A stretch of 64,000 nucleotides of DNA from Tribonema minus (taxonomy: Eukaryota; Sar; Xanthophyceae; Tribonematales; Tribonemataceae), in the NCBI GenBank assembly GCA_017506865.1, contig JAFCMP010000525.1:62001-126000 (forward strand). Reading direction: 5' to 3'. The notes under the pieces are model-generated. The model saw nothing but the letters and a program-made list of their open reading frames with translations, did no database searches and had not been told where the DNA came from. How positions within the stretch are numbered: position 1 is the first letter of the stretch; each line of letters begins with the position of its first letter. Below, piece by piece: positions 1,634-50,350 of this stretch. The position numbers and the translations under genes were made by a program.

Positions 1634-3723
1634 GCCGCTACAGCCCCTGCTCCTGGTGCGATGATCGCGTACGTGGCAACCCTAGATTAAACCTACATAA
1701 TAGGTGATCAACCTCATCCAAATTTAAAGACAAACTTTAGTAAATGAAAATTTGAGCGCGCACCACCCGAGTTTGGGGCATACTGCAACACACTGCACCA
1801 TACTGCAAGGTGAGGCACTACTGCAGCAACCGTTGGGCCCATCTAGTACTTGTGCAGCAGTCACCCGCAGTGACTCCCAGCGCGTGCCTGAGGGGGCATA
1901 GTCACGGTGGCTGCATTAATCGTGTCCCACACCTGAACACTTGCGCAGCTATCATCACTGAACCGATGGATGCTGTCAGTCAACCCGCCTGCCCCCGTAT
2001 ACGTGTAGGTACGTGCGTTCACAAATGGGAACCGTTTAGCCGGAAGGGGTTTCGCGAGGGCTGTGTGTCTGACTCTGATCCTGCGAGTGGTTATGCTCAC
2101 GGGGGGCATGCGAAAACTTGTGGGAAATTACACTGTGGTTGGGAACGTGCCTTTGGTGAAGCCAAGTCGCAAAGAACAACTATTCTGTACAAACTGTACA
2201 TATGAGGTGAGGGTACCCACCCTGTATAGCGCTTTCGCGGTGGCCTGGAGACGGCACCTCCGATCCACGTCCTCGGACGATTTGATGGGAGGTGCCTTAT
2301 CGATAAACTGCTCTACAATGTGTCAGCCGTGGATATCTATACAGGCGGCCCTCAGCTAACTCATGCATACATACTTAGAGTCCAGACACTGTGCTGACAT
2401 AGATCTTGACTAGATGTGTGTGTGTACATAGTGTACATACATGGAGCAAATTTTTTCGTGCTCACATAGAGTCTCTGTATACAGAGACACAACTAGACGG
2501 GCCTTCACCAAAGCACGCCTCGCCTCGTAACAATACCCCACCCTCCCCCACCCCATCCATACCTATCTCACTGACCTACAAGAGGCCGAGTGCAACGTGC
2601 TTACCGCCAATGCAGATTATTGAGCTGACTATAACCTTACAGTACTTTTTGTTAGTTCTCGCTCAGGGCGCGAAAAAGCCCAGATGAATGGCATCCAACT
2701 TGAAGCTTGCTGTACGGAACTACATGTCGTGTGACAGTCTGAAAGTGTCTCAACGACAACCACTCAAACGCCGCCGCCGCCAAACGGCATCTCGGGATCC
2801 TCCCCTACTTCCTCCTCCATGTGCCCCCCCCCCCTACAGTACATACCGTGCAAATGTCTCCCAGTGTTCTGCGGTCAACTCAGCTGTAGTGGCGCTCGCC
2901 TGCGCACCAACCGCCAGCGGTGGCGTACAGTTCCGTCTGTCATGGATATCACTGCTCAGCAACCTCCAATGACGTCAGATCTGAGGTACTTTTGACAAAG
3001 AAACTGAAACGGCCCTCAGGTAGGCCGTACATGCAGTGTGTTTCCAGGGTGCACGTCATACGTGAGGCATGCGTTGAAGCAGCGGAATTCCTCAAGCCAC
3101 CTAGAATTGGAGGCGGGATGGCAGGCGCGTGTGGTGGCACTGCAAACACCGTGCACAAAACTGCTGCTGATCATGTACGCGTGCTGCACGCGTGCGCCAA
3201 AGCAACATGTCAAAACGGCACACACGATGCAAGATGCGGCGCTTGTGTACAACTTCAAGTGTAAGGTGGTGGTGTCGCATTCTTTTGTGTTTCGCAACGT
3301 TCTTAAAGAAAACAAAGCGCGCAGTAATCTGTTTTTTAACTGTGATCAACACCCTTCGCGTGCGCCGTACCTGTAATACGCCAGACCAGATGAAGCCAGA
3401 CAGGTGTGGTACGTATGAGTCTTGTGAGTCTACGGCGCATATCTTCACCATGCCAACCTCAACTTGCACTGCCCGCCGCGTGACGACGCGCCAGCATCAG
3501 CCTCACGCCAGCTACCTCTACATTCTAGCTGTAGCTCAGCAATGCCACAGGGCTGCACCGGCATGTCGTCACCTGCGCCATTTGCCTCTGTTCAACTCCT
3601 TGAACCTTTGTGCAATTGCGTAAGCCCCCAACCCTTGTCCACCCCGACTCCCCTCTCTCAGCCCCACAGAGAAGGGGGCGCGGGCGAGGTAGAGAAGAGG
3701 GGTTCGAGCACAAGTGTGAAGGA
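1634..3723. other. Intergenic stretch, no gene recognised
   Basis: Short frames on both strands show no domain, consistent codon bias or splice structure. It lies between the 5' end of the trigger-factor gene and the proposed 3' end of the NYC1-like gene. A motif at 2646-2688 recurs near 63709-63756 (see findings). Confidence 0.5.
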
Positions 3724-6700
3724 TCACTCATCCTCCTCAGCGTAGAACTTGCGCGCGCCGTTCCTCTTGTACATGGCACCTGCGGTCTTCACGCGCACCC
3801 CCTGCGCAGTAACACAAGGGGGACGGACGCAACAACACACACAGTGTGAATTACTCGTGTGCACAGTTGAGGGTACAGCAGCAGCGTGTGCGGCACTACT
3901 GGCTGAGCGCAGGCCGGCGCGAGTAACCCTGACCGCAGCCCTTAGCAGCTGCAGCTATGAGCCAAGGAGCTGTTGGGATGGCATAGAGTCGGAGACGCGT
4001 GCGATTAATCCTACCCTTAACCCTAAAACCTAACCCCAACTCTCGCCGTAATCCTTCATGCACTGGCCCTTGACAGCAATGAAAAATGGCGAGGATCAGC
4101 ACGGCGGTGACTCGTGACTTGTGAGTCGAGACCCTAGCCCTACCCTGTGGATAAGCCAAAGTTACTCTGAGACACCGCTTTGGCAAACGGCAGCCTGAAC
4201 CTGACATCAGCGATACTTCAAACCATCGCCACGCACCTTGGCATCAAAGAAGCGGCCGTTGGCCGAAATTTGCGGCGCGACTACTTAGCGCGAGGCACGC
4301 AAACCTTACTCCACGTCCAACCGCCAAAGCGGATGCGGTGCATGCTTATTGTAATCCCATCAATACTTTGGCATCAAAGAAGCGCTCGTTTGCGAGGATC
4401 CGCGGCGCGCCGAGCGCGAGGCGGCCGAGCCCTAGCCCTACTTGTAGCTCCGGTGGCAGACGCACTGGAAGTGACCGGGCCCTAAACCCTAGTTGTAGCT
4501 CCAGGGGCAGAGGCACTGCATGCTTGCGCACACACCTGGGCACATACACGAGTACTTGAGTGTGTTTCAAGCAACGCATACCTGGAGTTACTGTCCAAGT
4601 GGATAGAGGTTAGAAACGAAATGTTCAGGGGCCTGCGTTTCGTGTTCCGTGTTTCGGCCCCACAGGCATTCCGTTTCCGTTTCGTTTTCCGTGTTGAACC
4701 GAACACGGAACACGGAAAACAGAACCGTGTTTCGTTCCGTTTTGGTGGCGTTTTAAGCCTGTGCAGCCGTGGCAGAGCGTGTGCAGCCGTGCCCACCACG
4801 ACATGCACGAATGCTGCTAACATTATGGTCCTGCTCAGCCCCATTGGCCGGGCAAGCATGGAGAAATAGGTTGCAACTACATGGCATGTCATACATGATG
4901 TCGTCTTATCCAATACAATGGACTCTGTCCAGCATTTGCGGCACAGTACGGCAGTAAAACAGGGGGTGACCGCGCATTTGAGACAGCTAGTTGCAGGGGC
5001 GACCGACAATCACGGAACGCCCTGACAAGCAGTCTCAGGGCATAGGCGTTAATTTTAGGATTAACTAATTGACAAACCTACGCGGTAAACAAGTTCAAGT
5101 GAAAGTTGAGGTTCAATTTTTTTCGCAAAGCTGGCAGTGTCTGGACGAGAGAGCAAATGCCTGAATCATCGCCTTGCTGCACAATGTGCAGTGCACCCAC
5201 CAGGACAGATGTCTGGCACCACACAAGCACGCAAACGCGGCTAAATCCGCATAAAACGGAACCGGTTTTCCGTGTTCCGTGTTCCGTTTTTCGGTCCGTT
5301 TAAACACGGTTCAAACACGGTTTTCCTGGAAAATTTCCGTTTCGGTTTTTCAGTTTTTAAATTTCAGTTTCAGCACGTGATATTTTGAGTATGTCATGTG
5401 AGTATGCTAGTGGACCTGCAGAGGTATCCGCGTCCTATGTGAAGTGGACTTTTTATTCCGTTTTCCGTTTCGGTTCCGTTCCGTTTCTAACTTCTACAAG
5501 TGGACCACACTCACAAGTCAAGGTACATTCACTGCAGAGCATTTACTTGCTAGTATAGCTCCGAGCGCACTTGTCCGATCTACGCAACGTGCATGGCCAG
5601 CATATGCAGCGCCGCACACACGAGGCACTTAGACCCTAACTTTAAAGCAAGCAACACACCCGATGCGGCGCGCGTTATCGAAGGTAATGCTCCTACCTTT
5701 GCGTCAGAGAGGGAGAATTGGCACACGTTATTTAAGGTTACTTACGGAGTACATACCTTGGCGTCAAAGAAGCGGCCGCCACCCAGGATCTGCGGGGCGC
5801 AGAGCGCGAGGCGTCCAAACCCTAACCCTAGTCCAACCGCCAAAAGAAGATGCGGCGCATGCTAGTTAAGGTGCGTGCACACCTTGGCGTCAAAGAAGCG
5901 GCTGCCGGCCAGGATCGGCTGAGCGCTTGACCCCGGCCCTGACCTTGGATGCAGCCCCACACGATGCACTCGTTTGCAGAAAACGTACATATAAGTAGAA
6001 AGATGTATGTGCATGTATAATGTGTATATATACTGCGCACCTTGCCGTCAAAGAAGCGGCCGCCGGCCAGGATCTGCGGGGCGCCAAGCGCGAGGCGCCC
6101 GAGTGCCTGCGGCGTCGTCAGGAACTTGATGTACGTAGAGCCCTTCTCGCCGTCCACCTCCCTGCGCGAGTAAAGCGGCAGCGTGCAATGGCACAAGGCA
6201 ATGTGTTCAGGAGGCACCGGTTGCGCCGCACTTGAAGTACGCGTAACGCTATACAGAACTGCAAGAACTTGACGTACGCAGAGCCCTTCTCGCCGTCCAC
6301 CTCTCTGCGTGCGTAAAGCGGGAGCATGCAATGGCACAAGGCAGTGTGGTTAGGAGGCACGCTGTCAAAGTATGCATAACCGTAACCCTAACCCCTACCT
6401 ACCCCTACCCTAGCCCTTCTTGCCGTCCACTCTCTGCGCACGTGAAGTGGCAGCGTGCTGTGGCACAAGGCAGTGTGTGTAAGGGGCAACAGTCACGCCG
6501 CAGCATGGCTCTGACCCTAGTCAGTACCTGCTCCTAACCCTTGACTTGCGCCATACAACTGCAACTGCGCGCAGAGGGGCGCGAAATGGGCACAAGGCAG
6601 TGTGTTCAGGAGGCACGCTGTCAAATAACGCATATTCATAAACCTAACCCCTACCCCCTCTCGCCGTCCGTCTCCCTGCACACGCGCGCAGGAGCGAGGC

Positions 6701-9700
6701 AGAGCGCGTTCAGGAGACACTCACGATGCTCCATAGCAAGCTTTTGACAAGGAATGTGTGAATTACATTTCATGGAAGCACCTTGGTGCTACCTTTGCGC
6801 GGAATGCCCACAATGCAGTGTGTTAGGCATCATTTGCGCCGCCGTTGAAGTACGTGTGACCCTTACCCTCACCCGTACCCCTAACCCTCACCCCAACTCT
6901 GACCCTAACCTCAACTTGCGCCACACAACTGCAAGAGTGCGCTGCAGCACGGGGAAAACACGCTGGTGTGCCGTCAACAGCATACTTCGACGTACAGCAG
7001 GAGCTGAGGTTCAGACCAGCGACAGCATGATAGCGCTGTCGAGCGCTGGCTCGTCGTGTGATCCTGAACCCTACCCCCACTGCCCCTCACCACGCGATCC
7101 CGATGGAGCGCTGCCTCATCATGCAATCTTCATCCAACGCCCCCCCTCACCCTCATCACGTGATCCCCATAAGCTCAGACTGGCCCACGGCAGGAACATG
7201 CCAGCTACGCGCGGCACCGGGCAGTGTGTTCGGGAGGCACCAGTCACGCCGCGGCGTGTACTCTAGCCCTAACCAGTACCCCGCACGCTACCCTAACCCC
7301 TGACTTGCGCCCTACAACTGCGAGAGCGCGCAGAAGCGTGTTACAGTGGCACAAGGCAGTTTGTTCAGGAGGCACGCAGTCAAATTACGCGTAACCGTAA
7401 CCCGAGCCCGAACCCCTACCCCTAACCCTGACTTTTGCGCCCTACAGCTGCGAGAGCGCGCAGAAGCGTGTGCCAATGGCACACGGCAGTGTGATCCAAG
7501 TACGCGGGACCGTAACCCTAACCCTACTCCTACCCCTAACCTCAACTTGCGTCATGCATAGGGTTGGCACGTGCGTAGATAGTATATATACGGTATATTG
7601 GTACATACGCGTATATATACGCGTAGACGCCGAAACGGGGCGTATATTCGCGTATACGCTTTTGCACCGCTGTGGTGCTCACGAGCGCTGCCCGTGGCCC
7701 AGCGCATGCCAAGGGTAAGGTGGCTAGGGCTATCTGGGGGCCAGAAGCGGAAAGGCAGGGCTGAGCGGTGGTCTCAAGCCACAGAAGGCGCCTGCACAGC
7801 CTGAACTTGGCAATTCAGTGGCTCAGGCAGCTTCGCACCTGGCCAGCAGAGCCTGCATGAGCCTTCACGGCTTGTCCTGTCGGTGATGTGGAAGAGGACG
7901 ATGGGAAGGGAGTCGCTGCACATGCTGACAGACACGCTGCCCTCTGACGAGGCGCAGCTTTTCAGCGGCACCATGCGGTCGGCGCACTCAGGCCGTAACC
8001 AAGCTTCTTTTGGCATTTCGGCCAACTTCAAGAGAATCCCACACTTCAAGTGTTGCTCTGATGACACTTTATGAAGGCAATTATTTCTAGTGTCTGCATG
8101 TCTGTAATCAGCACCCTGAGCCCGTTCGAATGCACCTGGTTTCAGAGAAATCTAAAGACGACAAGTCGTCGTAGCGAGATTTGGCTTTGTCAGATACGCT
8201 AATATACGCAGTATATACGTATTGTACGCCAAAAATACGTATATATGCGGGTATGCAAAATCCAAATATACGCAATGTGCCAACCCTAGTCATGCAACTG
8301 CAAGAGCGCTCAGAGGCGCAGTGCGGCATCATCGTGCCCGTGCGCAGTTCCAATTAGCTCGGGGGACGCACGCTGCTGTGCCGTGAACAGCGCACTTCAA
8401 CGTACAGCAGGTTCAGACTGAGGTCCAAAGGTTCAGAACGGCGACTGCATGATCGCACTGCCTCACCATGTGTTGCCCCCCCCCCCACCCCTCATTAACC
8501 CTCATCATGTGATCCCGATAAGCTCGAGAACAACTTGCCGGCGCCGCTACACGCGCGACGCGCTCCGCGAGAGCTTCTGGAGCTGCTCTGAGTACGAGTT
8601 TCAAATTTACATGTTGCCTGCGCATCCAAGAGCTTGCCACCCAGGTTCAGCGTTGAGGAATCCAGGAGAGCTTTTCTGGGTCGGCTTCACGGCTAGACGG
8701 TACGTTTTACTGCCTGCAAAGCGGGCCGATGCACCTGCGCCGTGGCACGAGGTCTGCCGCCAGTGCGTCAGTGCTCCTCGGTGGCACGTTTCACCCAGAC
8801 TCTACACCCAGTGATCCTTCATGGCCTCCACTTTAATTACGTGTACTGCAGTTGGCAACCGCTCCGATGCACACATACTTTCCAAGCAAAACTGCCGGCA
8901 ATGCCGGTCAACGCACCTGAGCCGTGGCACGAGGTCCGCCGCGACCGTGTCGGGCTCCTCGGCAAGCGCGTTAAAGAGCTTGCGCGTGTTGGGCTCTGAG
9001 CCCTCCAGCAGCAGGTCCGTCAAGACCATGCCGGGGCTCATTGTGTGCACCTGGCGCACGCAACATCATCACGAGGCTTACGTTAGGGGCACAGTAGGGT
9101 CAGCATTTGCATTGCGGTCATGCGCGTGGAGCTTCACTTGAAGTTACGGCGTCGTGTGCGCCTGCGCGATGGCGTGCGCGCGGAGCGTCACCACAAAGCT
9201 TACAGTTAGGATAACGGGTCAGCAGGCATCATCATATGTTTGAGATGAGGGTCATGGTAAGGTTATGGTTAGGATCAGCAGGTTCTGTCAGGACCGTGCC
9301 GGGGCTCATCGTGTGCACCTGAGCGATGGCGCACGGAGCATCACCATCGCATTCAAAGTTGAGTGTTAGGGCAGGGGCGTCAGGTGCGCTGTGCGCACCT
9401 GGGCGGCCCGGAGCAGCAAGTAGGGGTTACGGTGAGGGTTACGGGGAGCATCAGCAGGCTCTGTCAGGACCATGCCGGGGCACATTGTGTACACCTGAGC
9501 AATGACATGCGGAGCATCACCATCAGCCTTTTTTCAGCAGCAGGTCTGCGAGGACCACGCCGGGGCTCATTGCGCGCGCCTCAGCGGCGACAGGCAGAGA
9601 CGCGCCATCGCGGCGAAGGGCTGAGAAGGCCAGCAGGTCCACCGGCACCGCGCGGCCGGGCATTGGCGTGCTGAGCATCGCCACTTTGCTGCAGAAGCTG

Positions 9701-12700
9701 AGGACTGATGTCTGAACCATCTTGTAGTCGAAGTAATATCGTTGTTCACCTGCACGCGCTTCTCCAGGCCGGCATCCTTGATCTGCGCTGCAAGGCGCGC
9801 TCGCTGACTCCAAATTCAGCATCACACATGAAGCTGAAGTCTTGTTGAGTAAGTGTGCAAATTTAAAGTTGAAGTTGTCCCATCGATCACCTGCACGCGC
9901 TTCTCGAGCCCAGCGTCCTTGATCTCCGCAGTGAGACTGGCCGTGAGCTGCGGCATGGCGCTTTGTGGACTCTAGGTTCAGCACCACACATGAAGCTCAA
10001 GTTTACCACCAAGTTGAAGTATTCAAATACTCCGAAGTATTCAAATACAAAGCTGAAGTAATATCAATTTCACCTGCACGCGCTTCTCCAGGCCGGCGTC
10101 CTGGATCTGCGCTGCGAGGCTCTCCATGAGCTGCGGCATGGCGCGCTGCTGACTTCAAATTCAGCATCACACATGAAGCTGAAGTCTTGATGAGTAAGTG
10201 TGCAGATGTAAAGTCGAAGTTTGTCTCATCGCTCACCTGCACGCGCTTCTCGAGCCCAGCGTCCTTGATGTCCGCAGTAATACTGTCCGTGAGCTGCGGC
10301 ATGGCACGCTTGCTAACTCCAACTCCAGCAATCACACGCGGGGTTGAAAGCCTAAACACCTCTTTGAAGCATATGCAAATTCAACATTGAAGTAGAGTAG
10401 TCTCCACCTGCACGCGCTTCTCGAGACCGGCATCCTTGATCTCCGCAGTGAGGCTGGCCACGAGCTGCGGCATGGCGCGTTTCATGGTGCCGTACGCCGC
10501 AAATGAATCATGGAGTTGAAGGCTTATCACCAAGTTGAAGTATATTTTAATTCAGGTTTATGTAGAAGCAGTCTTTCTTCACCTGCACGCGCTTCTCCAG
10601 CCCGGCGTCCTTGATCTCCGCAGTGAGACTGGCCGTGAGCTGCGGCATGGCGCGTTTCGTGGCGCCGTACGCAGCGAAGCGCTTGGTGGCGCCGCCATTC
10701 ACGCCGGCGCCGTCGACGTTGAAGACGTTGCCGGGGAAGCCGTTCTGCTGCGCAGCCATGGTGCGCATCGCCTGCAATGTGTGCGCATGCAGCACGGTGG
10801 TCAGCGACAGCGTTTACGCGGCAGCGGGGCCACCACTGTATCATAAATGTATTGCGTTGTGTATGCGTCTCCTTGAAGTTGAAGTTCACGCCCGCGCCGT
10901 TGACGTTGAAGATGTTGCCCGGGAAGCCATTCCGCTGCGCGGCCATGGTGCGCATGTGCGCACACAGCAAGCGCGGTGTCAGTGGCAGCGTTCACACGAC
11001 AGCTTGGGGACTCGCGCTGCCTCGGACAGCACTGCATCTGCATCAGACATGTTGCATCGCATACAGAAGTGGGCACGCGACAGCGTTCCCATGGCTCGCG
11101 GCGCAGCAGCTGGGAGGGTTGGGCACCTTCCATCACCCATGTCACCAGCCCTGAGTGCACGATGTGAGTATGCCACTGGACACATTGCTTGGGGTAGAGG
11201 TGTGTGCAGCTTCCAGCGTAGGTGGAAAATGTTAAACTGGCAAGAAGACCATTCATCTGAAGCATAGCTTTTTGGCTTCGCAAAATAGGTTGGGGCAACA
11301 CATCAGGGCAAGAGTTGAGCGTTGCCGCGCAGCAACGCATCAGTGACATGTTGCGTTGCAGATTTATGCTATGACATTGCCGCCATGCAGCTCGTCGCCG
11401 ACAGGGACGCGCGTCGAAAGCCTGAGGCAGCTTCTGGCGCGGTGGCGGAGAGGGTCCCAATCAGACCGCACTGACGATACGCGTGCTATGAGCATACTAC
11501 TTCAAGTATACTGTAACTCCAAAACACAACGCGGTATTGGATCGTAGCGCTGGCAGCAGTCCGTCACGTTGCAGTTGGCCGTCCATCAACTTGTACTCGG
11601 TTTGTCGGGGCAGGGCGCTAGAACGTAGCGTAAAAGTCATGATATATTCAGGGTTACAGGTAGGCGAGCGTTAGGGTCACATTGCAGGGGTAGGTGAGAG
11701 TGAGGTTTAGGTTGAGTTGCTGTCGCCTTGCAGCAAAGTGTAGCTATAGTAGAAGCAGGTAAGGATTAGGATAGGGGTGCAAGTTGCTACCGTAGAGGTG
11801 GTTAAGGGTTAGGAGGTTCACGTCCATGCATGCAGGTAACAGAGCGAACCACCGTGCATGGAGGCAACATAAGCAGAACTGAGCCTTGAAACTATGAACC
11901 TCAACGCTCAGCAGCACTAGACGACATGCGTCAAGATGTCCACACTATCAACTAGAAATCTTTGAAACCTCCAACGACTTAGCAACCAAGATCCAGCGTT
12001 GCAACTGTGTGCGACGTGCTTTACTGGCCCGTGGCGCTAGAGCTAGGGGTTGGGTCAGCATTAATCTGCTAGGTTGCAACAATAACCTGGTGACGCTCCT
12101 GTGTGCGACGTGCACTGCACCACAGCGCCAGGCACATCAGTTGAAGTTCAAGCGGTTCTTTAACTTGAAGTGGTTGCCCACCTCGCGGCAGCACAGCAGC
12201 GTCCCCAGCGTGTTGGTGCCAACCACCGCAGCAATGTCTTGGGGATCCGCGTCCATCAGCGCTCCGCGCCCCGCGGCGCACCCCGCGTTGTTGATCCACA
12301 GATGAACCTGCATTCGTTCATGAATGAATTCACAGTGCCCTTAGTTTATAAGAATGTCCTGGGGGTCTGCGTCCATCAGCGCTCCACACCCCGCGGCGCA
12401 CTCCGCGTTGTTAATCCACGGATGAAGCTGCATCCATCCAGTGAATTCATGATGCTCCTGGTTGGAACATGACACGCATGCATCGGTGGGGCGCCTGACA
12501 AACCCCAAACCCTCAGCAACATCAGCTTCAACAATCGCTTCACTGAGTGCTGCCAATACCCCCCCCTCCTTCCCCCCCCCGGCCGCCAGCCCGACTTTAG
12601 CTGCGCACACGGCAACGCGCACGCAGACCGCTCAGCAGCGACAGTCATGTGTGAGGCCTGTTTACTTTTGTACCGTCACGAGTTGCCGAGATTGCAGTGC

Positions 12701-15283
12701 GCTTCGAGAAATGAAAGATGCGGAGCGCTGCTGCTGCACACTCCACCATCCCCTGCACCGAGCAGAATGCCACTTGCGCGAGCGCGCCTGCCGCCGTCGT
12801 TACCTCACGGCTCAGATGCGGGCATATGTCATTGAGCGCTGCTGCTCAGCCCACCGCTATCACGACTTCCCGCTGGACAAGCATACGCGGCACGTATACG
12901 AGCGGCCGAGGTCCTGACACACTCCGCGCAGCCTTCAACCAATGCACGCACGCGGTGAATTGGCGCTAGCGAAGTGTGGCGCGCGCTGCTGCTGCTGCTG
13001 TGCCTCCTGTCCACTTTGGTCACTGTCACGACTTCCCCCTGGACGGAAACCTGCAGCACGCAGACTATACGAGCGGACCTTGACCCTAACCCTAATCCTA
13101 AGCTCCTGCTGCATACCGCGCTAGCCGGCGACCCAACGTGCGCGCGCGGGGGACAGCGGCCGAACAGACATGCGAGCACAACGCGATTGAGCGCTGCAAC
13201 TGTTGCTCACCCCGCCGCCCGCCGCGAGCTTGTTGCGCGCGAACGCCCCCAGCGCGCGCACGTCGTTCGGCGACGACACGTCGCACGCGGTGCCCCACAC
13301 GGCCGCGCCGCCGCCGCCGCCGCCGCCGCTGCCGCCGCCGGCGCCGCCGCCGGAGTTCAAGTTGAACTCGCGCTGCAGCGCGGCGACGGCGGCGGCGACG
13401 CGCGGCGTGCCGCGGCCGCACACGACGACCCTGTCGCCGCGGCGCAGGAACTCGCGCGCCATGCAGTAGCCGAGGCCACGCGTGCCTGAGGGCGTCGCAG
13501 AGGAGAGAGGTAGGTAGGTATCGCTGCTTATTGCCCTAGGATTAGGGTTTGTGCTGAGCAGTTCGACAAGAGGCGACCCTGTCGCCGCGGCGCAGGAACT
13601 CGCGTGCCATGCAGAAGCCGAGGCCAATGCAACTGCCGCTGTCAACACAGGACCCGGCGGGCCGGTTGCGAGACTCTTCGCCGCAGCACATTATCCCGCC
13701 TTGCTATGCGCCCCATTCTGGCCTTTTTAAGCAGTGGATAATACATAATAATTCAGGAGCCCACTGGCTTTCGCAAAAAATGGCAGAAAAATTGATTTTA
13801 ATCAAGAAGTTGCAGAGGCATTGGTACAACTGAGTGATGAACATGACGCGCGCAACGCGAGGGGTCACCGTCTCATAATGACACGCTGCGCGACCACGCT
13901 CAACTGTCTCTCTATGGTATCTTCCCCTCCGCAACACCCCATTGGCACTCGTGACCAACTCGCAATGTTCGGTGTGTTCCCACCCTCGGTCCTCGTGATC
14001 GACTTCATCTACTACTGAATGTTTCAAGTGAGGCCTGAGGTGCGCTGTGTTCCGTATGGTCACACCCTGTGGAGGAAAAACCTGAAAAGAGGTCTGCGCT
14101 GCCCCCGATCAGCTTGGACACAGGTACTGCAACACAGCCCAGCAGTCGCGCTGCAACACAGCCTTGCAGCTGTGAATACCATTGACTCGTGTCAGGGGTT
14201 GCCTTGGGCCCTTGGGTGCAGCGCGCCCTCCTGCTTGGCCTTTGCAGCCCACGCACTCTGCGCGCTAAGTTCTCCAAGGACTTCAGAGGGTGACGTGCAC
14301 GCAACGTACAGGCACAGCAAGCAGCACGTCGCAGGTCGCATTGACGGCCACTCATGGCCCTTGTGAGTACCACCGTCCTAGTTAGGCTTGGTGCTCGTGC
14401 TATGTCTGTGGTCAACTGCTGCTTGTGACAATTCGCAACCCTGCCCCCGGTCTGCCCGGGTATGCACATGATGGTACACTTCACAATATGTGGGGGCGTA
14501 GTATCCCGGCGACATCTACTTCAAGTCCGTATCTGAAGTGTTGGGGTTGCCTTCTAAAGAAGGCAAGCTACTAGCTGCCTGCTGCCTGCGAGGTTCTGGA
14601 ACATTCCAAACAAGTCTGCCTGCCAAGGTGCCATTTTCTGTATGGTGATGTAAAGTAGGTCCTCCGTGTATGATCGTCAGGGTAGCAGAATCTGAGAGTG
14701 TGGTACGGATTGGAGTTTACTTGGATTGTTCAAGGCTCGGGGCTAAGCGCTTAGGGTTCCGCCCATCCCATATCATGAACGCGAAGAGTTAGGGTTAGGG
14801 TTAGGATCACAATCGGGAATATATTCTTCCAGCTTTAATTTCTACAGCCCGCTTGCAGCGCGCATGTGTTGGACTATATGGCTGGGATAATGAACACGTG
14901 AGCGGACGGCCCGACGACCAGTCGTTCCAATAATAGTAATGATAGCGGCATTTGCCAAGGATGCACTGGGCCGCGGTTCATGTTTCGTGCAACTAGTTCC
15001 TACATGGCTGAACGCACACCGCGCATGCAGCACACGCACCGCCTGTGATGACCACGCCAAAGCCCCCTTGCCGCCTCAGCCAGCCAGCACTGAGGTTGTC
15101 CACGCCATCAGCAGCGCACTGCAGTCTCCCTCTCTCAGCCTGCGCCGATCTGGCTCTGCTTCTTGCTCGCCATGCCCAGCCGCGCTGCTGATGCAGCGCT
15201 GTAATGCCAGTGCCGATTGGCAGCAGGCATGCAACTTGCTGCACTGCCAGCAAGGCAGCAGCAGCTGCGGCAAGTGCACGCAT
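3724..15283 (-). CDS. NYC1-like: Chlorophyll b reductase-type short-chain dehydrogenase (NYC1/NOL family), seven proposed exons
   Basis: Proposed exons: 15283-15040, 13485-13211, 12307-12182, 10771-10583, 9050-8917, 6161-6041 and, less surely, 3779-3724. All junctions are GT-AG, and exons 1-6 join in frame to 363 residues. The product starts with a hydrophobic signal peptide (MRALAAAAAALLAV...), then a Rossmann core: VVITGGTRGLG near residue 75 (NAD(P) loop), CDV, INNAG near 178-182, the family-typical GNVFNVDGAG, and the catalytic pair in YGATK (Y250, K254). VHTMSPGMVLTDLLL and the C-terminal FLTTPQ...GGRFFDGK are diagnostic of NYC1/NOL, which reduce chlorophyll b to 7-hydroxymethyl chlorophyll a in plastids. 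The last exon would end KFYAEEDE but needs a +1 phase shift relative to exon 6, so a small exon may be missing. Introns hold many copies of exon ends. The true substrate in an alga that may lack chlorophyll b is open. Confidence 0.85.
4236..5920 (-). repeat. Four degenerate copies of the 3' end of NYC1-like exon 6
   Basis: Copies at 5881-5920, 5755-5813, 4366-4427 and 4236-4297 each encode a version of GGRFFDAK and each is followed at the same point by GT, as at the real donor (6041/6040). They lie only on the downstream side of exon 6. Confidence 0.8.
4621..5490. repeat. CGGAA/TTCCG simple-sequence patches with perfect hairpin
   Basis: Three patches (about 4621-4745, 5256-5345, 5450-5490) are built from TTCCGTTTTCCGTGTTCCG-like words on both strands. 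Within the first, GTTTTCCGTGTT at 4684-4695 pairs perfectly with AACACGGAAAAC at 4709-4720 across a 13-nt loop. They lie in the long last intron of the NYC1-like gene. Confidence 0.75.
6259..8340 (-). repeat. Array of copies of the NYC1-like exon 6 acceptor region mixed with telomere-like tracts
   Basis: Copies of the acceptor and first codons of exon 6 (REVDGEKG) occur with acceptors near 6305, 6435 and 6677. Further copies of the intron end alone (CTGCGCGCTCTCGCAG type) occur near 6541-6640, 7306-7380, 7430-7500 and 8284-8340. Degenerate CCCTAA runs separate them (e.g. 6372-6410, 6870-6910, 7385-7430, 7508-7540). Copies are confined to the intron upstream of exon 6. Confidence 0.7.
7575..8275. 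repeat. Alternating TATACGCG-type patches
   Basis: 7575-7662 and 8195-8275 consist of alternating purine-pyrimidine words such as CGTATATATACGCG, self-complementary in many registers. Both lie in intron 5 of the NYC1-like gene. Confidence 0.55.
8725..8765 (-). repeat. Copy of NYC1-like exon 5 donor end
   Basis: The - strand reads GCAGACCTCGTGCCACGGCG then CAG/GTGCAT, matching the end of exon 5 (ADLVPRLR, donor at 8917/8916). It lies downstream of the real exon. Confidence 0.65.
9292..9590 (-). repeat. Copies of NYC1-like exon 5 acceptor end
   Basis: Segments at 9292-9345, 9462-9515 and 9540-9590 repeat, on the - strand, the exon 5 start that codes VHTMSPGMVLTD with its preceding acceptor. 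The real acceptor is at 9051/9050, and the copies lie only upstream of it. Confidence 0.75.
9748..10504 (-). repeat. Tandem array of five copies of the exon 4 donor end (about 170-bp period)
   Basis: After the real exon 4 (10771-10583), the segment coding RAMPQLTASLTAEIKDAGLE plus its CAG/GT donor recurs, with donor ends near 10406, 10236, 10073, 9889 and 9748 (spacings about 177, 170, 163, 184, 141). The copy at 10406-10504 is nearly intact (AAYGTMKRAMPQL...). Units are joined by AT-richer pieces with TTGAAGT words. Confidence 0.85.
10868..10965 (-). repeat. Upstream copy of the start of NYC1-like exon 4
   Basis: Encodes TMAAQRNGFPGNIFNVNGAG, a second version of TMAAQQNGFPGNVFNVDGAG of the real exon, then runs directly into AACTTCAACTTCAAGGAG. 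It lies on the acceptor side. Confidence 0.8.
12352..12433 (-). repeat. Upstream copy of NYC1-like exon 3
   Basis: Preceded by GATGCAG, it encodes WINNAECAAGCGALMDADPQ, matching exon 3 (WINNAGCAAGRGALMDADPQ) and then ending after GACATT. It keeps an acceptor but no donor, so it could act as a decoy or alternative 5' part. Confidence 0.8.
13573..13640 (-). repeat. Upstream copy of the start of NYC1-like exon 2
   Basis: Encodes GLGFCMAREFLRRGDRV, one residue different from the real GLGYCMAREFLRRGDRV (13485 leftwards). It lies just before the true acceptor and has lost its own. Confidence 0.8.
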
Positions 15284-19854: not shown

Positions 19855-22800
19855 AGAGTGCCCGCCCACGAGCGGCATAAAGAAGTCCACGGGCGACGGC
19901 ACCTTGCGCAGGTGGTTCTGCTGTGGCGGCGGCAGCATCGCGTGGTGCGCGTGCAGCAGGCTCGGCGGCAGCATCAGGTGCTGCGCGGCCATGCCGCCGC
20001 CACCACCGCCGCTACTGCCCGCCGCGGCTGCCTGCAGCGCGTGCGGGTCGCCCAGCTGCCCGAACGCGTCTGACGGCGCCAGCTGCGGCGACTGCAGCGC
20101 CGCGTCAAAATGCGGGCTGCCGCCGCCCTGCTGCTGCTGCTGCCGGTAGTGCTGCCGCTGCTGCTGCTGCTGCCGCTGCAGCTGCAGCGCCGCCGCCTGC
20201 GGCGAAGATGGCGCGTACACCATCTGCTGCATGTCCATGCCGCCGCCGCCGCCGCCGCCGCCTGCCATCGACACCGCCGTGGCCGCAAGCATGCCACCCC
20301 CATACTGCATACCCCCGGACGCCATCCCCCACGGCGCCCACTGCGCCGGCACCGGCGTCGAGTGCTGCCACTGGTGCTGCGCCGCCGCTGCCGCCGTCGC
20401 CGCCGCATGCTGCTGCTGCGGCAGCGGCGCGGCGCCGGGCGTGCGGCCCGAGGCGAACGCGAACGCGTGCTGGCGCTGCAGCTCACGCAGCATCGCCTCC
20501 TTCTGGTGCAGCTGCAGGCGCGCCTCCTCTGCCTGCGCCTGCGTGCGTGCGTCACGCAAGACGGCGGTGAGCGGCACAGTGGTGAGCGGCGGCAGCAGCG
20601 GGGCGGCAGCGCAGCAGCAGGCGGCAGAGGCGCAGGCGACAGAGCAGTGGGCGGCAGAGAGCGCAGCAGCGGGCGGCAGCGCCGAGGACGGCCGAGCAAC
20701 AGGCGACAGAGCAGCGGGCGGCACAGCACTGGGCGGCAGAACAGTGAACGTCTCAGCTACTGTATGAGTGGCGAGCGGGCATAGCGGTTCATGGCAGAGC
20801 AGCGGGCGGCAGAGCAACGCGCGGCACGGCGGTGTGCAGCGCCGCAGGCGGCGGAGCAGCAGTGGGCAGATGAGAGTTGTGAGCGCAAGGGGAGCGACGT
20901 GCGGAGGGGTGGCGATTGTGCGCAGCGCATTGCGCAGGCTCACGCAGAGACCGTTGCACGAAATGACGCAGAGCCACCTGCCGTCAGCCTATAAAGACAA
21001 ATATTGTGATAGGTTGCTGAAGCCAGTTGTTTTTTACTGTTCACATGTGCTTCCCGTAGGGATTGAACTCGCGTTCAAGGCCTTATCAGCCCCACGAGTG
21101 CGCAGCTTAAACCACTCACTCAGCTGTCAGACTTACCACGCCATTCTGTACCCCGCAAACATATCACTGCAAAGTGCATGACGGGGTAAAATAGCTCGAA
21201 GCGCACCACGCAGCGCAGGCGAGGACACGGCCATTCAGCGCGGCATCGGAGAGAAAGCGCCACACGTGCCAACTTCGAGGTGCATCAGGACCGCCGCGCA
21301 CATCCTGCGGCTACTTCAAAGGACAACGATCGCGCGTGCCGCCGTCGCCATCAGTGCGCGAGCACGCACCTGCGCGTGCGCCACCTGCATCCGCAGCTGC
21401 CCGCCGCCGCCGCCACTACCGCCGTCGCTGCCGTCGCCACCCCCGCTGCCGCCAGATGACGGATCCGCGCTGCCGCTGCGCCCATCTGCCGCCATATGTA
21501 GCGCCGACAGCGTGCTCGCGTCCATCACCGACATGGTGCGCGGCATCGCCGCCGCCGCCGACGGCATCGGCATCATCCCCCCTGCCATCCCCCCCATGCC
21601 GCCGCCGCCGCCGCCTCCTTTGCCGCCGCCACCGCCGTTGGCATCGACGCGGAAGTCGACGTTCCACGCAGAGTCCACCCACGGAGAGTAGCTCATCCAG
21701 GCCATCTGCTGCTGCTGTTGCGGCGGCGGCGGCGGCAGCGGCGCCATGAGCGCCCCCGCGCCGCCGCCGCCGCCGCCGCTGCCCTCCATTTTTACCGCGT
21801 ACGCCGGCGCCCCCAGCGACAGCGCGCCGCCGCCGCCACCGCCGCCGTCCAAGCCGCCGCTGCCGCCGTACACCTGCCCAAACATCATGCCCGAGACTGC
21901 CGCGGAGTTCGGCATCATGGCGCCGCCGCCGCCGCTGCCGATGCCGTCCGCGGCAAACGCCGCCGCTGGCATGCCGCGGTGGTGGTGGTGGCGGTGCGCC
22001 GCCGCCACCGCCGCGCCGCCGCCGTAGATGACGCCGGCGGCAGCAGGCGGCGCGCCGCCGCCGCCCGCAGCGGCGCTGGCGCGCCCGTTCCCCGTGTCAG
22101 CGCTCGTCAGCGAGCGCGTCGATGTGGATGTCGAGCTGGAGCCGACGTCATCGCTCCAGCAGCTGGCGGCGTCGTCCGCGTGCCAGCGCGCGCCGCCGCC
22201 CCCACCGCTGCCGCCGAGGCGCCGCGCGCTGCTGCCGTTGGCGTGCGGCGCCGCCGCTGCTGCTGCTGCCGCTGCGGCGGCGGGTGCGTCGTCGCCGTTG
22301 CCGTCACCATCTGCGAGCCCCTGCTGCGTGTGGGGGGGGGGAACGAGCGGAGGTGAACGTCGCGCAGCGTGGCGGTCAGCGCGTCGTGAGTGCCCATCGG
22401 CGGCCAAGGGCGCTGTTGCTGAAGGTGTGCCGCAGTCAGGATGGTGGGAATCTGGAGGACTGTTTCTGCATGGGCGCGTCCATGTTTCGTCACGGGGCGA
22501 GATGATGGTGCCCACAAAGCAAGAGTCGGTGAACAGTTCACTGGTGAGCTGTGAACAGTGCACGCAGTGCGTGGTGCACCGCGCAGCGCACGCCACGCCC
22601 TTCCGGCGCCTGCGCCATCACAAGCCGGCAGCGAACTGCGCGTGCCCGTGATGAGTACACCAGTGAACTCTGAAAAGTGCCAGTGATCATTGAACAGCGC
22701 ACGCGGGGCATGCCCGGTGAAGTGCGCACCATGCTCGCCCGCCGCCCGCACCGCGATGTGCGACTAGCCCGTGAAGAGTTCGCCCGTAAACTGTGAACAG

Positions 22801-25800
22801 TACATGCGCCTCAGTGCACGCCGTGCTCGCCCCGCCGCCCGCACCGCGACGTGGCCCAGCCCGTGAATTGTACGCCATTGAACTGTGAACAGTACGCTGC
22901 GCCTTACCTGGTGGACCGCGCAGTGCACGTCGTGCTCGCCCGACGCCTGCACCGCGACGTGCCGGCGGTGAAATTGCGCGTGCCCATGAGCAGAACACCG
23001 CGGAACGTGGGAAGTACAACAGTGAACTATGAACAGTACACCGCGGGGCGGTGAAGCACGCGTCATGCTCGCCCCGACACCTGCGCCGCCGCATCCCCAT
23101 GAACACTACACCGGTGAACTGCAAACAGTGCGCTGCGCCTTACCTGATGGACCGCGCAGTGCACGCCGTGCTCGCCCAACGCCTGCACTGCGCGCAGTTC
23201 GCGTGCCCATGGATAGCACACGGCGGAACTGTGGGAAATACAACAGTAAACTGAAAGTACACCGGCGAACTGTGACCAGTACACACGCGGCGCACCTGGT
23301 GGACCGCGCAGTGCACGTCGTGCTCGCCCGACGCCCGCACCGCGACGTGCCGCGCGCAGTTCGCGTAGCGGCACCGCTGCCTCCGCATGTCCATCATGTC
23401 GTCCGTCTGCGCAGCGCGCGAGCGACGGCGACAACCAGACGCGCACCGCACGGACGCGTGTCAGCGGGGGGAGCGAGCGATGCAGGTGGGGGGGGCGCCG
23501 TCTCGACGCGCGCGTTCTGAAGGCGCGGACAGGAATGCCGCACGTGCTGCAACACAGATTGCAAAAGAACGCCGCTCCTTCCATCTGCGGGCCGCGCGCG
23601 CGCGGATGAACGCAGCACGCGTCGTACGCGCGCACATCGGCAGAGGTTCGCAGAGCGCTGCCACGAGCACCGCCGCTGTAGCCACGAACCGCCGACGTTG
23701 GCGCGTCGGCGAGAGCGCGCCCGGTCGCCAGCGCTGCAGGCGCCGCTCGCGACGCCCAGTTTTTCGGAGTGCGTAACTGCCCTGCCTCGCTCGCGCGGCG
23801 GCTAGACTCGCAACTCACCTCAGCATGCCCGCCCCGCGCAGCGCTGCGCCGCCGCAGGCACGCGCGCGACCACGCACACAGTTTCGGGATGCATGACTTG
23901 CCTGACTTGACTCATGACTCGGACTCGCCTTGTGCTGCCCCGCACAGCACAAGGCAGGTTCAGAGTGCGTACCCGCCCCCCGCCTCAACCCCCTGACTCA
24001 GACGCCCCCTGCGCGCCGCTGCGCCAGTAGCGTAGGCGCCCACAACACACGCAGTCACTGAGAGGACCATGACTCACAATCGCGACCGGTGACTCGTGAC
24101 TCAGACTCGCCTTGTGCGCCGCGCAGCAGAACCGCCCCCCCGCCTCGGCTCCCACCCCGAACGCGCCTCGTGCGCCGCTGCGCCGGTACCGGCACTAACA
24201 TAACAATACACACAGTCACTCAGAGGCAAGTGACTCACGACTTGTGAGTCAGACTCGCCTTGTGCGCCGCGCAGCAGCGCGGCGCGTGCCCGCAAAGCCG
24301 AAGAGCGGCTGCCGCGCGCACCCCAGGAGCTCGCAGCAAGTGACTCATGACTCGTGACTCAGACTTGCCTTGTGCGCCGCGCAGCGGCGCGGGCGCGTGC
24401 CCGCAAAGCCGAAGAGCGGCTGCCGCGCGCACCCCAGGAACTCGCAGCGCTGGTTCTTGACGTTGATCATGCCGACGAGCTTGTGCGCAGCGCAGTAGCG
24501 CGCGACCTCGCCCGCGAACCCAAAGTTCCTGTGGCCGCCGGGGGGGGTGGGGGTGGGGGAGGGAGGGGGGGGGGGGGGGGGGGGGGCATGCAAGAAGCAA
24601 GGCGAACTCGTTGAACCGGAGAGGCAGGCGCCGAGAACGAGCACGCATACGCATCAAGCAAGCGCGTATGTGTTGTGGCGACCCCAGCTGTGCCGCTGAG
24701 CTGAGAAGCTCGTGCACGCTTCGCAGGCTAGCCGATCCCTCCTGGGATGCCTAAAAATTACAACACTGTGCAATGGGGCCACGGCAGCACGCACAGAATT
24801 GCATCGTACAATGAGATGCCAGATTGACTCCTCGATCCAACCAGCGTCCGGGCGCGGGCGAATCAGCTGCACGCGGAGCGCGATCGCGGCCCGGCGGGAC
24901 GCACCGCGGCAGCAGCAGCAGCAGGTGGCAGCGTGCTCCCGTGCTGCACGCGCTGCCGTACATGCCTCAAGTGAATGTGCGGAAGCCGGCGGGTCTCTGC
25001 GGCGCACGCCGGAGCGACGGCGCGCCGCCGCTGCATCGCTGCGCTGCTGCGGGAGGCGGCGCTGCCGTGCGCGGCGGCGGCGGAGGAGGCGGCGCGCAGC
25101 CTTCTTCAAGTTGACAGCGAGCCTGCTTCAAGTTGACCACAAACCATCAGCCAATGCGCATCATGGCGCCGCGGAGTTACTAACGCGGGCCGCGGGCACC
25201 GTCGAAGCGGTTGAAACGCCCACGAGTGAGAGCGCCTCCAACCGCACACCGCGCGCAGTCAGGTACCCCCAGCTTAGGGTTAGGGTTAGGATACCGCCGT
25301 AAGTGGAGCTTCCATGCGCGCCAAGGTGCTCCGAGAGCGCCAGGCTGCTGCGCTGGTGTTCCCACATGAAGGCTGACGTAGGCGATTGCCCCCCCCCCCC
25401 CCCTCCCGCAGCGATGCGCACCTCGCACCCACCCTCCTCGCACGGCCTGCAGTAGATGACGGCGACCGCGCCGTGCATCGCGGAGCGTGTCGCGATGCGC
25501 AGCGCCGAAACTGCAGCGCGCGTCACGCACCTGTGCACCTCGCTCCTCGCACAGCTGGGAGATGACGTCGACATGCCAAACTGCAACTTCAATGTGTGAG
25601 GCACCTGCGCACCGCGCCACCGCCCGTCCCTCGCACAAGTTGCAGAAGATGACGGCGACCGTGCCAGACAAGTTCAATGTGCGACGCACCTGTGCACCTC
25701 GCACCCCGGCTCCTCGCACAGCTTGGAGATGACGTCAACCATGCCAAACTTCAACTTCAATGTGCGACGCGCCCGCCCTCTTCGCACAACTTGCAGTAGA

Positions 25801-26257
25801 CGACACCGAACGTGTCAAACTTCAAAATGCGTGGATGCAAACTTCAATGTGCGACGCACCTGTGCACCTCGCAGCCCGGCTCCTCGCACAGCTTGGAGAT
25901 GACGTCGACCATGCCGCGCTCGCGGTGCGTCGCGCAGTGGCGCGGCTTCTGCCCACGCAGCGCGTACGACGGCTGCTTGCGGCAGCCCGCGTGCTCGCAG
26001 CGCCGGTTGCGCAGGTTCACCATCGTGCCGCTGCGGTGCGCGGAGCAGAAGCGCGGCTTGTCGCCCTCGTCGCCGTAGTACGGGTGGCGCCGGCACGCCG
26101 CCGCCTCGCACAGCTTGTGCTTGAGGTCGACGTGCGATGCGTCGCGGTGGCGCGTGCACGCGACGCTCGGCCCGCCGACGGGCCCGTACGTCGACGGCTT
26201 CGTGCAGCCCTCGTGGCTGCAGCGCCGCGCGCCGCCGCCGCCGCCCCCGGCGGCCAT
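19672..26257 (-). CDS. EsV-1-7 cysteine-motif protein with long Gly/Ala/Gln-rich tail (five exons, about 829 aa)
   Basis: Proposed exons: 26257-25860, 24528-24369, 23406-23296, 22323-21370 and 20538-19672, joining in frame. The N-terminal part holds six motifs of the form C-x4-C-x15-C-x2-H separated by exactly 12 residues (e.g. CEHAGCRKQPSY...CATH, CRYANC...CAVH). Exon joins fall inside motif 4 and inside the x12 spacer before motif 6 without disturbing the spacing, strong internal support for the splicing. The pattern matches the EsV-1-7 domain of the brown-alga developmental regulator IMMEDIATE UPRIGHT and phaeovirus relatives. The last two exons encode poly-Gly, poly-Ala and poly-Gln stretches, a short helix (QAEEARLQLHQKEAMLRELQ) and a basic end, RPKRPRI, possibly nuclear. 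Exon 2 uses a GC donor (AAG/GCAAGT). The start could be in an upstream exon, as the frame stays open to about 26450. Molecular function is unknown for the family. Confidence 0.8.
22560..23180 (-). repeat. Six degenerate copies of the EsV-1-7 exon 3 donor end
   Basis: Downstream of exon 3 (23406-23296), the segment coding GEHDVHCAVHQ plus donor recurs near 23137, 23040, 22904, 22803, 22702 and 22571 (100-155 bp apart). Two copies keep CACCAG or CATCAG followed by GTAAGG. Between copies is a recurring TGTTCACAGTTCA...GTGTACTGTTCA word. Confidence 0.8.
24100..24310 (-). repeat. Copies of EsV-1-7 exon 2 donor end, GC donors kept
   Basis: Two further copies of the end of exon 2 (QPLFGFAGTR...CAAHK version near 24250-24310, and a shorter one near 24115-24135) are followed by GCGAGTCTGA, as the real exon is followed by GCAAGTCTGA. 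Confidence 0.75.
24541..24592 (-). other. Poly-C pyrimidine tract before EsV-1-7 exon 2
   Basis: On the - strand an almost pure C run of about 50 nt leads into CGGCGGCCACAG/G, the acceptor of exon 2. A shorter C run precedes exon 4 (22330-22340). Confidence 0.7.
25410..25850 (-). repeat. Copies of EsV-1-7 exon 1 donor end (about 80-bp spacing)
   Basis: The segment coding MVDVISKLCEEPGCEVHR with AG/GTGCGTCGCAC recurs after exon 1. A near-perfect copy is at 25690-25745, with degenerate ones near 25771, 25608, 25531 and 25420. Junctions carry TTGAAGTTGAAGTTTGGCAT. Confidence 0.8.
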
Positions 26258-26459
26258 GGCGCGCGAGCGGCCGCCTCCGACGCCCCCGCCGCCGCCACCG
26301 CCGCCGCCGCCAACGCCGTCACCACCTGTCCAGCTGCCGCCGCCGCTCGAGGCACCGCCGCCGCCGCCGCTGCCGCCGCCACTGTCGCCGCCGCTGCCGC
26401 TGTGCAGGCGGCGCGTCACCCGCCGCCTCTCCGCCGCCGCTGCCGGGAGCCGCTGTGTG

Positions 26460-48883: not shown

Positions 48884-49699
48884 GTGTGGCTGTTTCGGCT
48901 CCAGAGAATGCGGTGGCGTCCCAGCGTGTCAAATCAAAAACTCAATAATCATATCAAAAAAACTTCCTCCTTCTTCAACTTCAACGCACAAGGGCTCAAC
49001 GTCACGCGACACAACTTGCTCGCAGACGCGCTTTTTCAGCTGCTCAAGCAGGTGGCCCACCTCCGCGGTCTCGACCGGGACACCCTTGCCCCCTTCCGCC
49101 GCTACGCGGCGCGCCACGGGTTCAACAAGTTCATGGACATCGTCTTCGGCAGCAACCAGATCTGCCTTCCAGTCCCTAAAGTGCAGCCGAGCGCCGACGC
49201 GGTAGCGGCAGGCCGGTGCACTAAACTGCGCGGCGGCTTTGGAGTAGCTTGTTGCATAGACGTCACCATACGTGACAGCTCATGTCCCTCCCGCCTCCGT
49301 CAGGCTCAGGGGGGCGCGCGCGATGTGCAGCGCGTGCTTGAATCGGCTTCGCAGGAAAAGATAGACACATACGTAGTCTCAGGGGCCCTGGACCCCACTA
49401 CACACACCCTATTTTCCGCAGCCTTTGACCACTTCGGCGCTATGTCACGCGACACCCAAGCGCTGCTACACGCACTCGCCGAGCAGAGCTCGCAGGGCAG
49501 CTACAATCTCGCGCAGCGCGTTGCCTTCTGGCGCCGCCGCGCCTCCCTCGCGCTACAGCGCGCGCTCACACGTGTCGTGATCGACAACTGGAACGCAGTC
49601 ATTGCCCCTGATGGCGACGTCAGTGCTTACCGCCGCATCGCACTGTTGCAAGTACCGCGGCCCTCGCCGGCCAGCGCCGAACCGCCGGCCCCTCCGTAG
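48884..49699 (+). mobile_element. Retroelement C-terminal domain, open reading frame (unit B)
   Basis: 271 open codons: NVTRHNLLADALFQLLKQVA, PFRRYAARHGFNKFMDIVFG, VACCIDVTIRDSS, FDHFGAMSRDTQALLHALAE and RALTRVVIDNWNAVIAP. The same order (Cys/His box, RHN-LAD, D-V-T, FG, closing helical part) follows the RT domain of non-LTR-type elements; here it stands alone, 5' truncated, right after the membrane gene's start. The stop at 49699 is followed by the shared 3' tail. Confidence 0.7.
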
Positions 49700-49778
49700 A
49701 TTTAGTTATCGCCCGATTATCGTGTGCTCAACCCCCATGCGGTCCAGGACATAATATACAACTTCAACGCGGGGCGGT

Positions 49779-50350
49779 GTGCAGTGCGCTTGCTTGAGGC
49801 TTCGTACCACTAGGCAAAGGTTAGACACGCAAGTAGTCTCAGGGGCCTTGGACCCCACTACACATACCCTACTTTCCGCAGCGTTTGACCACTTTGGCGC
49901 TATGTCACGCGACACCCAGGCGCTGCTACACGCACTCGCCGAGCAGAGCTCGGAGCAGCTCAATCTTGCGCAGCGCCTTCCGCAAGGCCTTCTGGCGCCG
50001 CCGCACCTCTCTCGCGCTACAGCTACAGCGCATGCCCACACGCATTGTGGTTGACGACTGGAACGCGGTCATAGCCCCTGATGGCGACGTCAGCGTCATC
50101 GCTGCACACTGTTGCGCGGCCCTCGCCGCCGCCCGCCCCCCCCCAGCAGGTATATTTACTTTACTTTACTTATCGCAAAGCCCATTTCATCGTGTGCTCA
50201 GCCCATGCGGTCAAGGACATGATATACAACTTCAACGCCAGATGCGCGTGAAGTGTGTAGTACCGCTCGCCTCTGCCTCCGAGTCGCTCGCCTGGTCTGC
50301 CCAGTGAATGCAGCGCAGCAAAGTTTAACTTTCAGCCAGGCAGTGTGGCC
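49779..50350 (+). mobile_element. Second retroelement 3' fragment with tail
   Basis: Repeats the GALDPTTHTLLSAAFDHFGA part, then the 3' tail (GCTCAGCCCATGCGGTCAAG at about 50197, ending AGTTTAACTTTCAGCC). It leads directly into the gag-like region of unit C. Confidence 0.7.

Follow-up and report, generated by a model that had tools for sequence, protein, structure and literature searches.

Introns of an NYC1-like gene in Tribonema minus probably lengthened through short head-to-tail duplications spanning exon–intron borders

The introns of an NYC1-like gene of the yellow-green alga Tribonema minus very probably grew by many short head-to-tail duplications, the units of which straddled an exon–intron border; the duplications would have originated in repair, with array growth following later. 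Fragments of exon edges lie in these introns in direct orientation and on one side of their exon, several of them in clean tandem geometry, and the same layout recurs in other genes. The original prediction, that the introns had grown by repeated duplication across their borders, is well supported by orientation, polarity, tandem units and recurrence, and the near-neutral decay of the copies agrees with it.

The gene lies on the minus strand of the 64,000-nucleotide stretch analyzed here (the window), to which coordinates refer unless stated otherwise. Its identity as an NYC1-like chlorophyll(ide) b reductase follows the family name of the protein search matches. The gene spans 11,560 bp, and 1,167 bp of coding exons give a model of 388 amino acids from seven exons, with GT–AG borders throughout. 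Exon 1 (15040–15283) carries the ATG start and an N terminus that, judged by eye, resembles a signal peptide. It is followed by exon 2 (13211–13485), exon 3 (12182–12307), exon 4 (10583–10771), exon 5 (8917–9050), exon 6 (6041–6161) and exon 7 with the stop codon (3724–3801). The best match, a deposited T. minus protein (P0001, 299 amino acids), begins with MAREFL in exon 2 and is 100% identical to the model from there to its C terminus, which amounts to 77% of the model length; exons 2–7 are represented in it. A codon model seeded with this gene and retrained on long open frames gave its top score to the correct frame in six of the seven exons; its power was too low for finding short exons unaided. 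Pfam scans of two stretches of the gene, with stops written as X, returned no matches.

To tally copies, the exons were masked and each was searched against the remaining sequence of the gene (E ≤ 0.01), counting direct matches up to 3 kb away. Eighteen copies were recovered. All 18 are direct, and all 18 obey the polarity that had been predicted: copies of exon starts lie upstream of their exon and copies of exon ends lie downstream. No wrong-side or inverted copy was found in this search, and exons 1 and 7 had no copies at the same threshold. The eight start copies derive from exons 2, 3 and 4 (one each), exon 5 (three) and exon 6 (two), and the ten end copies from exon 4 (five), exon 5 (one) and exon 6 (four). 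Comparison of the gene with itself (E ≤ 1e-4) likewise matched exon edges to introns exclusively in direct orientation, with none inverted.

All copies are read on the minus strand. Upstream of exon 2 lies a 96% copy of its nucleotides 8–60 (13574–13626), the flanking intron of which has no homology. Single start copies precede exon 3 (12353–12426, 89%) and exon 4 (10885–10955, 90%). Downstream of exon 4 all five of the end copies originally described were recovered: copy 1 (10408–10503, 90%), copy 2 (10237–10311, 89%), copy 3 (10074–10145, 88%), copy 4 (9891–9964, 96%) and the truncated copy 5 (9750–9788, 92%). Exon 5 has three start copies upstream (9535–9572 and 9449–9494, both 87%, and 9276–9318, 88%) and one end copy downstream (8735–8781, 83%). 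For exon 6, the four downstream copies stood: 5883–5926 (89%), 5757–5816 (90%, with a telomere-like run flanking it upstream), 4368–4429 (81%) and 4237–4296 (75%). The upstream count, given as at least three, fell to two at E ≤ 0.01, with weaker ones visible in alignment; one of the two matches at 93% (6262–6303), and the other (6412–6430) is 19 bp long, weak alone and part of a longer intronic array. Sixteen of the 18 copies are less than 800 bp from their own exon. The other two, both end copies of exon 6, are 1.6–1.7 kb off and sit towards the far end of the intron. Intron 6 also contains degenerate sequence that by eye is rich in ACGGAA (4620–4760 and 5240–5490) and a short inverted repeat (4626–4653/4702–4729).

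The same polarity was found in a second gene. Twenty chosen 10-kb stretches of the same assembly, on 10 of its 554 contigs, make up 264 kb together with the window. L016, picked as the stretch richest in local repeats, contains a myosin gene; this gene and the CNNM-type gene described below were chosen for their repeat-rich stretches, not at random. Eleven myosin exons are fitted exactly by a deposited T. minus protein (P0121, exact spliced match) with GT–AG borders, the start of the first exon being merely where the match to P0121 begins. Of 28 direct copies, 25 conform strictly (14 start copies upstream and 11 end copies downstream), one is an inner copy from late in exon 1 lying downstream, and two break the rule; four inverted matches of exon 4, all at distances above 5 kb, were left out of this tally. 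Clean border-crossing tandem units are present at the ends of exons 2, 6 and 11 and at the start of exon 10. For NYC1 and myosin combined, 43 of 46 copies conform strictly and 44 of 46 do so by exon half.

One of the two exceptions is a weak 20-bp match (E = 0.006). The other is a copy of deposited exon 8 directly behind exon 7. The 99-bp intron before deposited exon 8 consists of this 59-bp exon copy followed by TTAGGG repeats through to the acceptor (minus strand of L016, gene coordinates 5882–6083). Alternatively, exon 7 can be extended through the copy to AAG/GTTAGGG and joined to exon 9, which gives a myosin of the length of its relatives; the join reads GTHK, and the closest relative (P0122) has GSHK. 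The deposited path through exon 8 has 13 extra residues that are absent in five of six aligned relatives, the sixth having a different insert of about nine residues. Judged from these alignments, deposited exon 8 is probably a decoy copy and an annotation slip, in which case the second exception obeys the rule as an end copy. A little further along the same strand (about 6180–6300 in gene coordinates), an exon 8 end copy is followed by telomere repeats and then by an exon 9 start copy, with no ordinary intron between them.

Deposited intron 7, which starts with the 59-bp copy of exon 8, is also what might be expected if tandem duplication of an AGGT-bearing exon segment had created introns out of exon sequence, a named and reviewed mechanism of intron gain (PMC3443670). 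The myosin case is ambiguous, however, and a decoy exon in the deposited model accounts for it better. Gain of this kind would place end copies far 3′ and start copies far 5′ in the intron, whereas 16 of the 18 copies in NYC1 are no more than 800 bp from the exon they derive from. No whole new intron between two copies of an exon segment was found; the NYC1 copies are inside existing introns. What T. minus shares with the mechanism is tandem duplication combined with splicing, but here existing introns lengthen. We consider intron gain most improbable as an account of the copies, and retain lengthening by border-spanning duplication.

A CNNM-type transporter gene (L023) is arranged in much the same way, one of its exons, for instance, being preceded by four start copies. 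Its borders could be placed only approximately, the region at about 3270–3900 is ambiguous, and a weak match to the late part of an exon falls past the exon that follows; the gene was left out of the polarity tally. The pattern is not universal: only one local pair is present in L022, the stretch carrying a phosphoglycerate kinase gene. Scans for protein families found none in L029 (minus strand), in the initial 6 kb of L020 (minus strand), in 1 kb of L021 (minus strand) or in one frame of part of L027, and part of L017 gave a RICTOR_N match that was sub-threshold only. Among ten long open frames (from nine stretches and L029), six had no family, two had sub-threshold matches (DUF2306 and AAA_16), one was phosphoglycerate kinase and one a reverse transcriptase. 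The reverse transcriptase domain lies in a 1469-residue open frame at L032:1–4407 on the minus strand, in a stretch poor in local duplications.

Across the 264 kb, pairs of similar sequences within 2.5 kb of each other (E ≤ 1e-6) were direct in 240 cases and inverted in 7, pairs belonging to one array being counted separately. First-order Markov shuffles of the 264 kb (one per piece) gave no local pairs, so the copies are not due to chance. The commonest offset within the observed pairs is 100–200 bp. Local pairs cover 13.3% of the bases, ranging from 0 to 49% per piece, and recognised local copies make up 31% of intron bases in NYC1 and 57% in myosin. Copies are direct and adjacent head to tail both in the myosin gene, where self-matches at E ≤ 1e-4 number 39 direct and 0 inverted, and in the sample as a whole. 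Within intron 4 of NYC1, a two-unit repeat (10148–10221 versus 9803–9876, 93%) represents array-type growth, which may have proceeded by unequal exchange after the first duplications. A dispersed introner element was considered and rejected for one stretch, 1071 bp of exon 4 and intron 4: in an assembly search that skipped very common words, its only matches were its own locus and the nearby start copy of exon 4.

Geometry and purifying selection together impose the polarity, and no new mechanism is needed. A duplication would at birth have the form A-B-(filler)-B-C. Where the unit ran from intron into exon, the second copy alone would be joined to the remainder of the exon, leaving a dead copy upstream; where it ran from exon into intron, the first copy alone would be intact, and the dead copy would lie downstream. 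Selection would retain the exon still attached to its own remainder, and the other copy would become a dead piece with a fossil splice site. A duplication wholly within an exon would break that exon. The original prediction had held that no named mechanism gives this polarity and that simple tandem duplication would yield whole exons. Neither point survived: it is enough for a head-to-tail duplication to have its two breakpoints on opposite sides of the border, in exon and intron, and partial-exon units also arise when a breakpoint falls inside an exon. In simulations, tandem duplication under a viability rule gave only start copies upstream and end copies downstream, a result that holds by construction.

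Random capture of nearby sequence in free orientation, simulated in the same genes, gave only 18% (myosin) and 21% (NYC1) conforming copies, and the polarity therefore separates tandem duplication from free capture. Such capture, in which intron breaks receive fragments copied from up to about 5 kb away through synthesis-dependent strand annealing, is known in the human genome for fragments of the same size class and distance (mean 162 bp, <5 kb), and the human set includes four partial exon/intron donors (PMC2671141). With place and orientation free, its 18–21% falls far from the 43 of 46 observed, and the 240 direct against 7 inverted pairs in the 264-kb sample also argue against it. We rejected capture of nearby DNA on our reading of the model, in which side and orientation are free, and regard it as having very little chance of explaining the copies.

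Comparison of live exons with dead copies gave Ka/Ks values of 0.28 for NYC1, 0.43 for myosin and 0.35 together, where about 0.5 is expected for a dead copy against a constrained exon. The shortfall below 0.5 has P = 0.0035 for NYC1, P = 0.25 for myosin and P = 0.008 for both, copies within an array not being independent. On dead branches, with 24 mixed-pattern sites set aside, 58 of 89 changes (65%) were nonsynonymous against a neutral 76% (P = 0.013). With Ka/Ks below 0.5 and this slightly low nonsynonymous share, the copies may to some extent have served as coding sequence or been converted by the live exon.

The low ratios (0.35, and 0.28 in NYC1 alone) would suit functional alternative exons or splice sites under selection, either mutually exclusive or of the cassette type. 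So would the better preservation of exonic than intronic parts in several units and the retention of AG or GT/GC at the extrapolated position in 30 of 43 dead borders in the two genes, a retention that bears out the predicted ladder of decoy splice sites. The dead-branch share of 65%, however, is not far from neutral. The dead–dead pair at gene coordinates 5264/5610 (window 10237/9891) has pN 0.08 and pS 0.09 over 51 bp; of the dead–dead pairs it has the most similar introns, and its exon-like and intron parts decay about equally. Moreover, the copies are partial exons, and the deposited NYC1 protein omits every one of them. We judged constitutive extra exons unlikely on that omission and on the decay of the copies, and selected alternative exons are, in our estimate, very unlikely. 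The substitution patterns suggest that the copies are mostly dead, although some sequence exchange with live exons, or a short period of coding use, is possible.

TTAGGG is the likely telomere unit, and contig C2 opens with some 440 bases of it. Searching the assembly with (TTAGGG)5 gave 2303 plus 3123 matches, overlapping ones and contig ends counted. The 264 kb contain 72 telomere-like clusters (about one per 3.7 kb), and simple shuffles of the bases contain 3. Two of the 72 were too near a stretch end for comparison of their flanks; of the other 70, 21 are bracketed by direct repeats (alignment score ≥ 40), as are 192 of 1440 control sites (P = 0.0006), members of one array not being independent. 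Telomere-unit filler at seams exceeds control: of 100 gaps between copies 11 contain the motif and 89 lack it, and 83 of 2000 control intervals contain it (P = 0.004), an enrichment of two to three times. Four other hexamers in the same gap comparison occurred in 0, 0, 2 and 1 of 100 gaps. Exact seams occur, for example in L020, where 74 bp recur at 99% on both sides of a telomere-like stretch inside a tandem array. In the NYC1 gene, telomere-like runs lie between the exon 2 copy and exon 2 (13537–13549), between exon 6 start-region copies (6377–6395) and inside an intron 5 array (7392–7432). The intron preceding myosin exon 4 terminates in CCCTAACCCTAG. Over 20 stretches, the number of runs is weakly related to repeat coverage (rho 0.41, P = 0.07).

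We infer that the duplications came from repair of staggered breaks by fill-in and end joining, some with telomere repeats as filler. In mouse cells, Cas9-made breaks with 3′ overhangs lead to small tandem duplications that need Ku80 and fill-in by CST-Pol alpha, and their dependence on Shieldin has also been demonstrated in human cells (PMC8355091). The duplications reported there share with ours their short head-to-tail form and staggered breaks. They differ in that T. minus presents an evolutionary ladder in introns, with many duplications per gene and telomere-like runs in 11 of 100 gaps, and in that the pathway, known from mouse and human cells, is here a proposed one. The density of copies and the TTAGGG runs fit staggered-break fill-in repair, sometimes involving telomerase. 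CST also acts at telomeres, so addition of TTAGGG by telomerase to the same overhang before CST fill-in would yield B-TTAGGG-B. We offer as a tentative and fairly unlikely possibility the joint and stronger reading that fill-in of staggered breaks by the telomere machinery, with TTAGGG filler from telomerase, was a main engine of intron growth and that the filler also supplies working splice signals, CTAAC serving as branch point and CTAG as 3′ splice site, the acceptor in use at myosin exon 4 being an example.

A mechanism directed at splice borders, for instance through telomerase priming at AG/GT or YAG/G ends or through R-loop breaks, would differ from random local duplication in where it strikes. 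In myosin, seven intronic repeat clusters lie near borders (summed distance, P = 0.0006; six of seven within 60 bp, P = 0.045). The signal is weaker for the four clusters of NYC1 (P = 0.07 and 0.57), and several young copies end about 4 bp or less from the border. Detection is biased to borders, however, since old copies stay recognisable longer in exons, and telomere-like runs are not clearly closer to borders than random. Among 19 runs in the two genes, four lie within 5 bp of a splice border (7.6% at random) and four within 20 bp (16% at random); with distances near random, a clear attraction of the runs to splice borders was rejected. We think border targeting unlikely.

Continuity of the unit across the breakpoint is clean for several units, and the flanking intron is unmatched for several young copies. 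Among the youngest copies, those of exon 2, exon 4 (copy 4), myosin exon 7 (c5533) and myosin exon 9 (c6415) match their exon at 93–98%, but the flanking intron does not match. These count against plain co-duplication, because it predicts similar decay on both sides. Their exon-only homology could reflect conversion or unequal exchange between parts of exons, or duplication units ending close to the border.

A literature search, with most subscription journals outside its coverage, found no title or abstract reporting the pattern in Tribonema, nor any paper on Tribonema introns. Patch-mediated tandem duplication has reportedly been described in rice, and staggered nicks have reportedly been studied in plants. 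It is the density of copies and the TTAGGG runs, rather than the polarity, that stand out here. The duplications of Pace et al. (2009; PMC2671141) are likewise local, of 100–200 bp, and may carry partial exons and splice sites. In that study, copies ≤50 bp apart were excluded as tandem duplications and an oppositely oriented exon copy is reported, whereas the T. minus copies are direct and one-sided. Telomere-repeat insertions at repaired breaks in mammals likewise place short TTAGGG runs in interstitial positions at the seams; flanks are duplicated at some of them, namely 6 of 130 rodent and 4 of 25 primate loci (PMC2246262). By comparison, the 264 kb of T. minus contain 72 telomere-like clusters, some of which lie between long direct repeats. 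Direct repeats near splice borders have also been reported (PMC11782384).

The copies form a readable record of intron lengthening. Dead edges can be dated against their live parent and assigned a side by geometry, which gives datable layers within an intron. For annotation they are a warning, as the ladders present plausible false splice sites and one deposited myosin exon is probably such a decoy. T. minus may also offer a natural system for break repair with telomere-repeat filler.

Elsewhere in the window, EsV-1-7 cysteine-rich motifs (Pfam PF19114) occur on the minus strand at 22001–26400, amid local repeats at 22545–23352, 23908–24525 and 25424–25915. Further direct duplications lie at 54266–54627 (about 87%) and 49320–50238 (about 78%), and 56338–57007 matches 59212–59952 at about 81%.
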